Shown here in pieces: positions 44,876 through 64,000 of a DNA stretch of 64,000 nucleotides. The notes under the pieces are model-generated. The model made no database searches. It saw only the letters and a list, made by a program, of their open reading frames with translations, and was not told where the DNA came from. Origin of the DNA: Cystobasidiopsis lactophilus (taxonomy: Eukaryota; Basidiomycota; Agaricostilbomycetes; Agaricostilbales; Chionosphaeraceae); the NCBI GenBank assembly GCA_001599975.1, contig BCIO01000004.1, forward strand, positions 1,029,434 through 1,093,433. The letters run 5' to 3'. How positions within the stretch are numbered: position 1 is the first letter of the stretch; each line of letters begins with the position of its first letter. The translations under genes and the position numbers were made by a program.

Positions 44876-46276
44876 CACGATGCCTTCAGGCTCGTCGGTC
44901 TCACCGTGTGGATTTTTATCTGGGCGGTCTGCCTTCTGGGCTGCTATGTAGCGTAAGGTCGCTCATCCTTCCGCATACACTCCATGTTGAGACAATGTGC
45001 TCAAAGGAATACGCGATACCGGCGAACCCAAATCGTGGCCTCGCCAATTCGAGAGCAAGACTTGCCCGGCGTGTCCATCCTTCGGCCCCTCAGAGGCCTC
45101 GAATCCAACCTCTACGAGAACCTGGAATCGTCTTTTCAGCAGAAATATCCCAAGGACAAGTTTGAGATCTTGTTTTCCGTGGCCGAAGAGGACGACCAAG
45201 CCATCCCAATTGTTCGGACTTTGATGCAAAAGTTTCCAGCTGTCGCAGCCGCACTCATCATCGGAGAGGATGTCGTGGGCGTCAATCCGAAAGTCAACAA
45301 CATGACGCGCAGCTATGCCCAAGCCAAGCACGACCTTCTTTGGGTGGTCGACTCGAATGCCATCTCTTCAAGTTCGGCCCTGGTCAACTTTGTCTCCGAA
45401 ATGCTGCAATCCACTTATACCACCAAACCCGTTGGGATGGTTCACCATGTCCCATTTCCCGTCTACCCGGACATCCTTTGGGGCTCGCGGGTCGAGCAGG
45501 CTTTTTTGGGCACCACGCACGCCAAGATGTATCTCGCCATCAACGCCTGCCAAATCGACTCTTGCATCGTGGGCAAGTCTACCATGTGGAGAAAATCGGA
45601 CCTGGAGCGCACTGGGCCAGGGATGCAGGGCGGCCTGGAAGCGTACGGCAACTACCTGGGCGAGGACAACATGATCGGGCGGCATCTTTGGCACGACTTG
45701 AGCCTAAAGCATGCCATGAATTCGGATGTCGTTGGTAACACCGTGGGGTCCATGACCTTGAGCACTTTCTTCTGGCGACGCGTCCGATGGATTCGGGTGC
45801 GCAAGTACATGGTCTTGTGGGCCACTTTTGATCTCTATGAAGTGAACCGACGACTGATTTCAGTTCTTAATCAAAGCTCCTCAACTCTTGCAGAGCCTTT
45901 TACCGAAAGCTTGATGGTTGGCCTCATTGGCGCTCGATCAGTGCACACCTTGCTCGGCTTTCCGTCCCTCCTCTTTTTCGTCCTTCATATGGCCGCCTGG
46001 TATGCGACTGATGTCTCCGTGTACAAGTCACTCGCCCAGGCCTCGCCTCTTCGCCGACCGTCGCCCACTATCTACGAGAACCCTCATTCCTTGACGTTCT
46101 TCCAGGCGTGGATGCTTCGTGAAGTGATGGCGCTTCCGATCTGGCTTTATGCAATGGCGGGAAACAGTGTCAACTGGAGAGATAACAAGCAAGCCTATCG
46201 GGTTCGAAGGGATGGGACAGTGGTTACGATCGACGGGTCTTCGGGAGGCGTGCTCAAATCAAATTTGCCGTCATGA
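44876..46276 (+). CDS. GCS1: Ceramide glucosyltransferase (glucosylceramide synthase)
   Basis: Golgi/ER enzyme that transfers glucose from UDP-glucose to ceramide (GT21). The N-terminal span reads LVGLTVWIFIWAVCLLGCYV, then an intron (GTAAGG...TTGAG) leads to YRRTQIVASPIREQDLPGV. Catalytic blocks: SILRPLRGLESNLYENLESS, VNPKVNNMTRSYAQAKHDL, LLWVVDSN (acidic motif), GEDNMIGRHL and FFWRRVRWIRVRKY with the (Q/R)xxRW motif. An in-frame 54-nt intron probably lies at about 45841-45894, which restores EPFTES seen in the family. Two more hydrophobic stretches follow; stop at 46274-46276. The first exon with the start codon is not identified, so the 5' end is approximate. Confidence 0.85.
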
Positions 46277-56555: not shown

Positions 56556-57879
56556 TTCGCTTCGCCTCGACAGGGCCAGTTAAAGGTATTGAAGGAAGAA
56601 GCGGATCCATGGCCAATCCGGAGGAACAGTCAGCAATGACTTGGTGCCGGCCCGATGACGGCAACTCAGGTAGAGAGTTCTAGAGTAGTCTCCGGTTACA
56701 ATCGGTTGTTTTATGAGAATTGAGGAGACCACAAGGCAGGGGAAGATGGAAGTAATGGAGCAAGCTGAACTATGAAAGAGTTCAGGTCTCGGTGGCAAAA
56801 CAAGACAGGCCGAAGTGCTGAGCGTCAGACGGCCTGACTTATTGTAAGAGCCATGTAAAGCGAGCATATCTACCGTCAAACTTCAGGCGGGAGGAGGGGA
56901 GGAGGACAGGGTTACTGCGAACTCGGACTTTGAGCTTGGACTTTGGCCACATTGCTTTCCAATAAGGGCAAAAACTCGCTCACTGTGGGACGGAATACTC
57001 CCAGCCTGCCATCTGGCATCGTAGTGAGGCAGTCGCAGTCAGCCGATTCAGCTGATCAACGAGCCATCCTACCAGCGAGCGTGCTCCGGAAGCGATGCCA
57101 TCAGCCGGTGAGCTCTCGGCTTCTCATGGATGCATGGATGAGGCGCAGGATTGACTTCATAGATGGAGGGACCGACCGCTGGCAATTAGTTCAGCATAAG
57201 AAGGGATGAATATGTCGTGCTCTGTGGACGATTCGACCTAAACATCAGGTCCTTTCGAATGATGCTGTAGAGTCAGTCACCTACCAAGCTCTCATAGCCG
57301 CGTAGTGTCTCGAGCACAGGTGGAAGTACGCGAGCCGGGTCTGGTCGGTTCAAGAGGAGAGCCAACGACGCAAGGATTGTGAGGACGATTCTCTCGCCAT
57401 CTCATCCCAGTCGGAGAGATAGATGGTGCAGTCGCTCACCTTGACGCCTTCTCGAACAAATCCAACGGAAGATCAAACAATCAAACAAGCGCAAAGGGTC
57501 AAAACAAGAAGCGTGATTTCGAAGGCCCGCAAGATTAGGCCCGCCCTCCTGGGGCTGTCTATGATTCCAGTAGGAGGAGCAAAAAAGTGCAAAAATGCGT
57601 CAATCAAAGGTATATGTGCGTGGTTGTGGGGGTTTCTCAACCGAAAAACGAAGGTTTGACACCGCTTGTACTAGTAGCGAGGGTTGTTAGTGAGGGTCGG
57701 GTAAAAAGGAAATAGGTCGATGGTGGTAGTGGCACACAAAGGGTTGGGAATATAGGACGACAGAGACGAAAAGGTCGGGATAGGTGTACGCAAGAGAAGG
57801 CCACACGTGTATTATAGGAGAGCCGCAGTGGTCAAGTTGGTGCGCAGAGCGTGCTATAGGCAAAAAGGTTTTTGAAGTA
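56556..57879. other. Intergenic region
   Basis: About 1.3 kb, the longest apparent gap. Frames on both strands are short and without motifs or splice logic. It must include the transporter promoter and the 3' UTR of the G-alpha gene. A small noncoding RNA cannot be excluded. Confidence 0.45.
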
Positions 57880-59645
57880 TCAAAGATTGATGAGGGCAAG
57901 AGCGCCACCTACGTCCGCGACAGAAGCCAGCACCTTTTTCATCATGCCTCGGTCCTGCGGGGGCGGTCCTTCTAGCACAATCAAAAGCTAAATACGGAAA
58001 GTAGCGACCCACGATGGCGCAGGTGTAGTGGTGGTAGAGAACCTCCCTCTGGACGCGCTGCATGGCGAGGTATCGCTTGAGCAAGAACTTGGCCACGGCC
58101 CTGTAGTCCTTCTCCTGGTCCTTGGGGAACTCGGGGCAGCGGGCGTGGAAGGAGGACTTGGGCAGCTTCTTCCGCAGGAGGTCGATCTTGTTGAGGAAGA
58201 GGATCATGGTCGTCTTGCTGAACCAGCGGCTGTTCACCGTCGACTCGAACAGGGCCTCGGCGTCCTCCATTCGCGAGGTCTTGTTGTCTTCGTACATGGT
58301 TTGGTCGTAGTCGGAAAGAGAGGTCACTGTGGAGCCTCACGTCTGTACCAATACCAGGTGAAAAGGGAGCGCCGCTACCCACCATAGATGAGCACGTCGA
58401 CGTTTTCAAAGGCGTGCACCCATTTTCGTCGCTGGCCGAGCTGTCCACCGACGCTGGGATGGGGTCAGATTAGCCTTGTTGTGTGGCAGACAGTGGTGGA
58501 GGAAGCAGACAAAACTCACTCTGAGAGGAGATCGAAACAAAGGCGTAAGCAGCTTGATCAAGAGCTTAATCAGGATGATCGCCTCACCGAAGACCCGGAA
58601 GATGTGCGAGTTGATGGTGTACTCTGTGCGTAGTGCAATCATGTCGTATCAGCGATCTGATACGGTAAGGAAGGAGCACCACCCACCATGCTCTTGGATG
58701 CCGGTGGTCTTGATCCGACACCTCAAGATATCGTCGTCGGACGGGAGGTAGTCTGGGTCGGAGATCCGGGGCAGCTGGTCCAAGAAGAAGGCCGCCGAGT
58801 CGTTCACTGCACATTTTGAAGTGCCATGGCCATGAGCGCAGCACGGATCATACGGTAGGCCTAAACGCACGTTGGAACTCGGAAGATCTCTCCAGGGCAG
58901 CCAAGATGGCGGGCTGGGTGCGGAGGTGGTCGACAGCAGGGAGGACTTCGCCGTAGAGCAAGTCGGGCGTCATCGCTTGCTGTGGCGTCGTCAGGTCGTG
59001 CAGCTGGGTCGCGAAGACGCGGGACTGGTTGTCCTCTAGTTTGAGGCTGTGACAAGAGAGGTCCAGGCTGTCAAGATGGCGGCACTGGAACCGGCAAGGG
59101 AGGCAAGGGGCGCTCACCCAAATTGCAGCGTTGCGCCAAGAAGGGCCTGCATTGACTGCACCGTGTTTCTGTAGACACAGAGCAGCCCCTTAGAACAGTG
59201 GTGTTGATGGTCTTTAAGATGAGCGCCGCCTACTGAATGAAGACCTGTTCACGACGGCCTTCGCGGTTAGCTCGAACCAGCTCAAAGGGGACGGCTCGAC
59301 GAACATCCTTGTACTCCTCCCGCTCAGCCTGGCTGTATGAGCTGCCGTAGATGAGCTGCAAGTTGCGAAGAATCGTAGTCTTGCCCTGTGAGTGGATAGC
59401 ATCCGGCTTAGAGCTGTCACTTCTCATAAGTCCAAGCCCCGCTCACCGATTCGCTGTGAGGTTCACCTTCGACAATTAGAACAATCAGTTCTATCAGAGA
59501 GCCGAGGCACCCACCCAGCGCCGAGCAAGAGCAGCTTGGTCTTTGCTTTCTCGAGCCTTGCGTCTTCTTTCAGCTCCCGGTCAATCTGCTCGCTCAGCAA
59601 CCCGCCCTGGTCCGAGGCGCCCGAAGTCGACTGAGTGCAGCCCAT
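57880..59645 (-). CDS. Heterotrimeric G-protein alpha subunit 1 (twelve exons, microexons)
   Basis: GTP-binding signal transducer acting behind seven-span receptors. Exons (in gene order) 59515-59645, 59447-59453, 59305-59385, 59234-59244, 59118-59168, 58871-59046, 58687-58806, 58588-58623, 58520, 58383-58453, 58013-58326 and 57880-57954 total 1074 nt, 357 residues plus stop, all phases consistent. MGCTQS gives the Gly-2 myristoyl and Cys-3 palmitoyl sites. Motifs: GAGESGKTT (P-loop), RIKTTGIQE (switch I, Arg and Thr kept), [12 protein letters not shown] (switch II; Leu-Gly-Gln replaces the usual Arg-Ser-Glu), LNKIDL, TCAID. The C-terminus GGALALINL differs from the usual ...GL receptor-contact end. 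A second, diverged G-alpha lies 2.8 kb away on the same strand. Confidence 0.92.
58520..58520 (-). other. Single-nucleotide exon in G-alpha 1
   Basis: The minus strand reads CTCCTCTCAG|A|GTGAGTTTTG. Upstream exon 8 ends VF plus G; exon 10 begins with C then GTC GGT GGA CAG. Only insertion of one A between them gives GAC (Asp) of the invariant DVGGQ and keeps the frame. Flanking introns are 67 nt (58521-58587) and 66 nt (58454-58519), each with good donor, acceptor and branch-like sequence. Confidence 0.8.
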
Positions 59646-62448: not shown

Positions 62449-64000
62449 TTACAACAGTCCCTGCAAACAACGGATGAGCAGAGGCAGTATTGGGGTTGTG
62501 AGAGAACGTACAGCTGATTTGAGGTCTGCCTTCACCGTTTCTTGGATTAAACTAGTCGTGATCGGGCCCATTGCTTCTTTATCGAGAGCGCACGTGAAAT
62601 GGCGATAGAAGGGCATGTTGGGCTGTTGCTCTGAGCTGTTAGGCAGCCGCCACGTCTCACACATCTCACTCACGTTCTTGTGCATCGCCGTGAATCGGGT
62701 CAGCATGTAACGAAGGCACTCCTTGGAATCGCCACTTTTAGGAGCATCTGGGTAGCGGCGGTGCAATGGGACCTTGTCCAGCTTCTTCACGAACTGCAGT
62801 CATATGAAGTTACTCTCTGCTCTAATGAAGACCCAGAAAAACCCACCAAGTCGCACTTGTTCAGGAAGAGCATGATGATCGACTTCGAAAAGAAGCGACC
62901 TGCGCAAAATTAGTGTCCGCTTGCCGTCGCCGACACAATCCAGAGGTGAGCTTACTGTTGATGAACTGGCCATACAGCGTCTCCGTCTCCTCCATCCGGT
63001 TCTGCTTGTGATCTTCGCGCAAAGTTTCTGCGGAGGAAAGTCAGTGGTAGATTTGGTGGAATGGAACCGGACAGCCAAACGGTCATATTCGCTGATCGCT
63101 GCAACAAACAACAGCAGTTCGATGTCTTGGAAGCAGCTGACCCATTTACGGCGCTCCGAACGCTGTCCTCCAGGATCCACTGCCAATGGCAATCAGACAC
63201 GAAGATCAGCACACCAGGAAGCAGTCTTACGAAAGATGATGTCGCGTCCCTTGACGTGGATCTTGTACTCTTGAATACCGACAGTTCGCACGCGGACTCG
63301 GAGGATGTCCTGGTCGCTGGGGATGAAGCCGGGTTCATTGAAACGCGCCAGGTTCTCTATCAGGTATTCGCAGCTATCGTTCACTGATGCGATACAAAGT
63401 ATCAACATACGAATTGCTTCGCGGAGGCTTGGTAAACATACGCTGAAATTCCGACCGGCGCTCCATGGCCTGTTTGACGGAGGGCTTGGCTGCCAACTTG
63501 CTAATGCTCTCACACAGTTGAGACTGGTTCTTGAACAGATCGGTCTGGGCGTTGATTGATGCGACGAATTGAGCTTCCGATTTGACATCCTCTTCCAGCG
63601 GGATGTGCAGCGACTCCAGCGCATCGACAATCGCTTGCATGGACTGCACAGCGTTTGACCAAAGGATCTCCGTATACTCCATCCTCTCTTCATCGGAGTA
63701 GGCCTCGCCATGGCTGAGCCGAACCTGTCGTAAGACTCTACGGATGACCTGTGAGCGGCGAATATCTTTGTTCGAGCGGCAGTTGCAATGCAACTCACGA
63801 CGTCTTTCCCGACTCGCCAGGGCCCAACAAGAGAACTTTGGACTGGATCCTGAGGAAACCCATCAGAATCAGGCGCATGCTCATAGCGAAAGGAGGCCTC
63901 ACTTCAGCTCTTTGGCTTTTTCCCGGAGGTCCTTATCAATCTGGCTTGACTTGGCCCGCATCTCATCGGAGGCGGGCTCGAAACCTCTTCCACGGAAGCA
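62449..64000 (-). CDS. Heterotrimeric G-protein alpha subunit 2, 5' end beyond window
   Basis: Diverged G-alpha, minus strand, entering from the window edge ([13 protein letters not shown]...). Motifs: [14 protein letters not shown] (P-loop), [10 protein letters not shown] (switch I with Arg for Lys and Val for the second Thr; Mg-binding Thr kept), [12 protein letters not shown] (switch II with Pro for Val), LNKCDL, TCALD. The end is [13 protein letters not shown]...RCLQGLL, longer at the C-terminus than usual. Introns lie after [24 protein letters not shown] and CDL; the second-last splits SR of SRFFSKS. Loop insert [12 protein letters not shown] sits between the switches. It is not a recent copy of G-alpha 1; identity is confined to motifs. 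The N-terminal myristoyl exon is outside the window. Confidence 0.88.

Follow-up and report, generated by a model that had tools for sequence, protein, structure and literature searches.

Does a G-protein alpha gene on the minus strand of this DNA carry an exon of a single nucleotide? In the window, by which we mean the whole stretch of 64,000 nt that was analysed and whose numbering is used throughout, the codons for the switch II motif are interrupted by an interval that cannot be removed in one piece with the frame kept, and a sequence-only reading had proposed that one A within the interval is spliced in on its own. We consider it very probable (roughly 0.9) that the A at position 58520 would be a true spliceosomal one-nucleotide exon in a working G-alpha gene of an intron-crowded genome.

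The gene was joined by hand into 13 exons, from an ATG at 59645 to a stop codon at 57812, and the same model was recovered independently, and without prompting, by a spliced-profile aligner written for this analysis, in which the profile consists of 16 fungal G-alpha proteins and a one-nucleotide exon is charged 4 bits. Exon 1 (59515–59645, 131 nt, with an MGC start) ends within the GAG of the P-loop GAGESGKT, and the ES of this motif is supplied by exon 2 (59447–59453), a 7-nt micro-exon with the sequence CGAATCG. These are followed by exon 3 (59305–59385, 81 nt), by exon 4 (59234–59244), an 11-nt micro-exon with the sequence GTCTTCATTCA, and by exons 5 (59118–59168, 51 nt) and 6 (58871–59046, 176 nt). 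Exon 7 (58687–58806, 120 nt) encodes the switch I region, RIKTTGI, and exon 8 (58588–58623, 36 nt) leads up to switch II, which is completed by the putative exon 9 (58520, one nucleotide) and exon 10 (58383–58453, 71 nt). The NKID and TCA motifs are located in exon 11 (58013–58326, 314 nt). Exon 12 (57913–57954, 42 nt) and exon 13 (57812–57853, 42 nt including TAA) complete the gene with the C terminus LRTNLTTAALL; the aligner gives the same last exon minus the stop codon. Exon 4 is contingent on the splicing of a 60-nt intron (59304–59245), which is a judgement call, as the intron is a multiple of three in length and contains no stop codons; if it were retained as coding sequence, the protein would have 380 residues. 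Provided that it is spliced, our exon numbers coincide with those of the sequence-only reading, and the model sums to 1083 nt and 360 residues in an open frame, which replaces the earlier figures of 1074 nt and 357 residues.

The model matches PF00503 with 352 bits against a cut-off of 48.8 (residues 18–348), and it aligns over nearly its whole length to solved G-alpha chains. The P-loop, switch I TTG, DxxGG, NKxD and TCA motifs are all present in the model and in the alignment to the solved chains. Besides the junction in question, the frame is unbroken and contains no other stop codon, and the C terminus is intact. From its sequence, the gene is a clear family member, predicted to encode a heterotrimeric G-protein alpha subunit. 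It is a divergent one, with no homolog of more than 45% identity, and no ortholog recognised, among the best 120 of 1585 matches. Its switch II region (58453–58383) reads DVGGQ followed by LGQRRKW at the place where 117 of these 120 homologs have RSERKK, and contacts with beta-gamma or with regulators may therefore differ.

At the junction, exon 8 ends in VF plus G (TTC-G) and exon 10 begins with C plus VGGQ (C-GTC-GGT-GGA-CAG). If the two are joined directly, the frame shifts and a stop codon follows after 228 residues, as the sequence-only reading had noticed in part. Within the 134 nt between them, a single A at 58520 is directly preceded by an AG acceptor and followed by a GT donor, in the sequence context and at the position originally described, and it would provide the second base of GAC, the Asp codon of the switch II (G3) motif DVGGQ. 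This motif, described earlier as invariant, is present in 120 of 120 homologs (the best 120 of 1585 matches). The putative upstream intron (58521–58587, 67 nt, phase 1, gtgagg...ctctcag) contains a branch-like CTTAC whose A lies some 26 nt before the 3' splice site, with others at 38 and 50 nt, and the downstream intron (58454–58519, 66 nt, phase 2, gtgagt...tcccag) has two branch-like sequences, CTAAT at 17 nt and CTGAC at 12 nt. Both lengths are normal for the genome, as had been thought, since 86 other G-alpha introns span 48–89 nt with a median of 58 nt. Compared to these 86 introns, the donor and acceptor rank at the 26th and 35th percentiles in the upstream intron, and at the 77th and 35th percentiles in the downstream intron. 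Retention of the downstream intron would lead to a stop codon after 205 residues, retention of the upstream intron after 242 residues, and retention of both after 264 residues.

We compared the alignment scores of the gene with and without the putative exon. The real sequence scored 384.7 bits, which fell to 368.7 bits when a one-nucleotide exon of this kind was forbidden and to 370.8 bits when the A was deleted. Replacement of the A by C, G or T gave 380.5, 381.5 and 380.0 bits, a loss of only 3–5 bits out of 385. As base swaps cost little and the deletion costs 14 bits, the gain is mostly an effect of the frame, to which the identity of the base adds little, and the alignment supports one base at 58520 more than an A in particular. 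The real score was reached by none of 300 shuffles, and some one-nucleotide exon was called in 54 of the 300 when the frame needed rescue, so that a bare aligner call is weak evidence.

The strongest rival is that the whole interval of about 134 nt forms one ordinary intron and that the assembly lacks a base at one of the junctions (a base error or frameshift), the internal acceptor and donor being present by chance. Introns of this size do occur, with 4 of 371 modelled introns having a length of at least 134 nt, which makes one long intron feasible, if uncommon. The rarity of such lengths is one of three coincidences that this explanation would require, the others being an indel exactly at the junction and a chance pair of splice sites. 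To evaluate the last of these, the 134-nt interval was shuffled 20,000 times with its dinucleotides preserved, and the shuffles were searched for AG-A-GT. A pair was accepted if both sites scored at or above the 10th percentile of the 86 other G-alpha introns and both introns were at least 45 nt long. Acceptable pairs were found in 0.17% of the shuffles, and both sites were as good as those observed, or better, in 1 of the 20,000. In the whole window, the word AGAGT occurs 101 times on the two strands, of which 3 occurrences pass the 10th-percentile limits and 1 matches the observed quality. Moreover, the interval occurs only once in the assembly, and the frame is kept across the rest of the 13 exons. 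We therefore regard an assembly error of this kind as improbable.

It could also be that the frameshift is real, located in the gene or in one allele, and that the gene is decaying, so that a functional DVGGQ is not made. The low identity to all of the listed homologs and the LGQRRKW that stands in place of the common RSERKK would both be in keeping with decay. Against this, no second stop codon or frame break is found in the gene, and the P-loop, switch I, NKID and TCA motifs are intact, as is the C terminus. Furthermore, at third codon positions in the assigned frames the GC content reaches 80% on the upstream side of the junction and 85% on the downstream side, as compared to 54% in the introns. 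Both sides thus look like maintained coding sequence, and we consider a decaying gene highly unlikely.

A third explanation is that the transcript takes another route through the interval. To list such routes, GT-AG paths with at most two introns, each of at least 20 nt, were enumerated. A total of 348 paths were obtained, of which 50 were in frame and open, and 8 of these contained DVGGQ. A single path, the one-nucleotide exon, gave HIFRVFDVGGQ with no residue gained or lost. When GC-AG and AT-AC introns were also allowed, the number of paths increased to 3450, and the one-nucleotide exon was still alone in yielding an unaltered RVFDVGGQ. One other path retained FDVGGQ and both exons, but with an insert of 17 residues and an intron of 20 nt. 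Candidates for an alternative route include a 5-nt exon, AGTGA, combined with a donor further upstream (FR-S-DVGGQ), a 4-nt exon, TTTT (VF-VF-VGGQ), a 20-nt intron that leaves part of the interval as coding sequence (a long insert before FDVGGQ), and a non-AG acceptor, which was reasoned from the sequence outside the enumeration and gives Gly for Asp. The first three leave the frame open. However, these routes lose VF, gain residues, require introns below the observed range of lengths, or give up the Asp that is present in 120 of 120 listed homologs, and there is little chance that one of them is the main route. A stwintron can be dismissed, as removal of the whole 134 nt shifts the frame and leads to the stop codon after 228 residues. 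The one-nucleotide exon is thereby supported as the most economical of the explanations found, with the splicing itself read from the sequence.

How might such an exon arise? The sampled conserved genes appear to be so crowded with introns that adjacent introns sometimes fall 1, 2 or 3 nt apart. The two flanking introns would then represent two independent gains within one codon, one in phase 1 and the other in phase 2. Two separate gains are suggested by the finding that the introns are no more alike than random, and by the different placement of introns in the paralogs across the surrounding stretch of 14 codons. In this stretch, which includes DVGGQ, the introns of this gene and of nine other modelled G-alpha genes occupy twelve different positions (in profile column and phase: 201.0, 202.1, 203.1, 203.2, 204.0, 205.1, 206.0, 206.1, 210.1, 211.1, 214.0 and 214.2), for which repeated intron gain at new places would be the simplest reading. 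None of the nine other modelled genes has a one-nucleotide exon at the same codon. Separate gains are also favored over duplication since no other copy of the two introns is present in the genome. As for other origins, a tandem duplication of an intron in this gene was rejected, with 480 of 592 intron comparisons scoring as high as the pair, and a mobile intron (introner) was likewise rejected, with a 170-nt stretch matching only itself in the genome at E-values up to 10.

Since one nucleotide cannot seat the acceptor machinery and U1 together, the two introns would be removed one after the other, and the geometry, along with what is generally known of splicing, suggests that each is recognised by intron definition. 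If the upstream intron were to leave first, TTCG would be joined to the A and the GTGAGT donor would be left in place. If the downstream intron were to leave first, CTCTCAG|AC would stay as a normal acceptor. Either order would produce GAC and hence Asp.

The exon is not isolated, with exons of 2 and 3 nt modelled in other conserved genes of the genome. In a paralogous G-alpha gene, L013 (G000:C2:4500500-4506000, plus strand), a 2-nt exon, TG, was modelled at 2731–2732 within the Trp codon of RSERKKWIHC, flanked by two introns of 64 nt that are somewhat alike. Its two intron positions occur singly elsewhere, with 214.0 used by the second G-alpha gene at L010 and 214.2 by L012, which gives extra support for the 2-nt exon. 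The two introns are more alike than most pairs, with 2 of 592 comparisons scoring as high; a duplication is only a weak lead here because both positions also occur singly in the paralogs. In an alpha-tubulin gene, L034 (G000:C2:177800-180900), a 3-nt exon, AGC, was modelled at 1866–1868 of the reverse complement, within NEPPAQVPGG. A gene of the Rab1/Ypt1 type, L047 (G000:C3:2128800-2130800), was modelled with two successive 3-nt exons, TCG and GCG, at 518–520 and 602–604 of the reverse complement. They are located in the P-loop LLLIGDSGVGKS, where three phase-1 introns fall in three neighboring codons, and they persist under a higher intron charge in the aligner. The real scores of L013, L034 and L047 were reached in none of 200 shuffles each, and an exon of 3 nt or less was called in 37, 12 and 14 of the 200 shuffles, respectively.

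These models come from a survey in which the aligner was run on 52 loci and gave 45 usable models of genes chosen for their conservation: 9 G-alpha genes, 16 genes for EF-1-alpha, actin-related proteins, tubulins and phosphatases, and 20 genes for Hsp70 and the Ras family. Some of the models span their gene only in part, and the near-duplicate actin-type pairs L026/L030 and L028/L029 were counted separately. Seven of the reference proteins were checked against solved chains. The pooled counts leave out L017, the Arf-like L018, the Ras-family loci L040, L044, L048, L056 and L057, which scored less than 100 bits, and a terminal exon of zero length that was called in L010. They also exclude the second G-alpha gene at L010, whose last intron, again with a zero-length end, is the same kind of artefact. 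In L017, the aligner called a one-nucleotide exon inside an insert that aligns poorly, with flanking introns of 107 and 109 nt, and this call was discarded.

The 45 modelled genes contain 371 introns and 326 internal exons, a density of 8.6 introns for each kb of coding sequence in the models. In a study of 263 species, the highest fungal value was 4.5 introns per kb, in a chytrid (PMC8476143); the comparison is only indicative, because our genes are conserved and chosen, and because the aligner charges little for introns with good sites. With introns placed at random in the 45 genes, 3.4 one-nucleotide exons would be expected and 1 is seen. For exons of 3 nt or less, 9.9 are expected and 5 are seen (5 or fewer in 6% of the simulations). 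Two exons are seen with a length of 2 nt or less, and 4% of the simulations gave no more than two. For exons of 10 nt or less, 18 are seen as compared to 31.6 expected, and this rarity suggests that very short exons probably carry a cost. Very short exons are thus tolerated but somewhat avoided, or they are partly missed by the method.

A broader reading would be that the genome is saturated with introns, which enter nearly at random and with no practical lower limit on exon length, so that exons of 1–3 nt form a regular tail, with dozens or more of 1 nt in the genome, an extrapolation from 1 in 326 internal exons, and are spliced sequentially by intron definition. We hold the chances of this reading to be about even. 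If true, the density in these 45 conserved genes would exceed the fungal maximum given above (PMC8476143).

Some further observations concern other genes. A second G-alpha gene (in L009) lies upstream of the first, at about 62452–63964 on the minus strand, across a gap of about 2.8 kb, and has DPGGQ instead of DVGGQ in its switch II. About 11 G-alpha loci were found in the genome of 22 Mb, which is many for a fungus with a genome of this size. At the left edge of the window, exons of 5 and 6 nt were called on the plus strand at 170–174 and 509–514 (604–608 and 943–948 in L054), in a gene for a Rab-type GTPase that begins to the left of the edge. The window also contains a gene for a ceramide glucosyltransferase (44984–46276, plus strand) with one open frame of 430 codons, many of its best homologs being longer; the single frame suggests that at least most of this gene is without introns, unlike the modelled genes. 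The top five matches to this protein are at 50–53%, and those that carry a name are from Pucciniomycotina. EF-1-alpha reaches up to 92%, with Phenoliferia, but discriminates weakly, as 90% is reached by other fungi. The genome thus looks Pucciniomycotina-like, more from the glucosyltransferase than from EF-1-alpha.

One-nucleotide exons probe the limits of splice-site recognition, and gene finders readily overlook them. In a compact genome of 22 Mb, housekeeping genes with exons of 1, 2 and 3 nt would provide a natural series, with a bearing on the order in which the spliceosome handles two sites that overlap, and on selection on exon size. In this lineage, genes for G-alpha, tubulin and Rab proteins may also be mis-annotated or wrongly called broken.

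With regard to earlier reports, no one-nucleotide exon from a basidiomycete or from a G-protein gene was found among the titles and abstract openings searched, a scope outside which most subscription papers fall. The exon described here is not the first of its kind in a fungus: where the sequence-only reading knew of none, one is present in CYP621A of Fusarium (PMC12940212). That reading had also spoken of very few genes, one of them in Arabidopsis. The Arabidopsis case, APC11, holds, and plants have a second such gene, VPS55, both of which are treated in one paper (PMC8831610); APC11 is also cited in a paper on a plant micro-exon database (PMC12409088). A mitochondrial one-base exon is in print as well and is of a different kind.

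Fungal stwintrons resemble this gene in that two introns leave one short interval by consecutive splicing. They differ in that a splice element of one intron is interrupted by its partner, whereas removal of all 134 nt breaks the frame here. The lipS gene of Dactylellina haptotyla, with two exons of 3 nt (PMC5639578), is likewise an intron-rich fungal gene with several very short exons; the passage on lipS mentions no exon below 3 nt, as compared to 1 nt in our gene. In Arabidopsis APC11, as here, a single A lies between AG and GT and is essential for the frame, but that exon was demonstrated by cDNA and reporter constructs and lies in a plant gene within an interval of 422 nt (PMC4674806), whereas our evidence is comparative and both introns are short. 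The VPS55 exon is also a single nucleotide, with a GTRAGT donor, and was missed by annotation; it is conserved in flowering and other land plants, is backed by RNA-seq and RT-PCR, and is alternative in some lineages (PMC8831610). CYP621A, described in February 2026 by its authors as the first case for a fungal gene, is similar to ours in being fungal, in that the exon supplies the central base of a codon within a conserved motif, and in its phase-1 and phase-2 flanks, and the interval is 139 nt in F. graminearum, as compared to 134 nt here (PMC12940212). In CYP621A, an ascomycete P450 gene, the exon is a G in a Gly codon and is documented by 20 orthologs and by RNA reads from two species (PMC12940212), whereas the gene described here is a G-alpha gene of basidiomycete type, in which the exon would be an A in an Asp codon.
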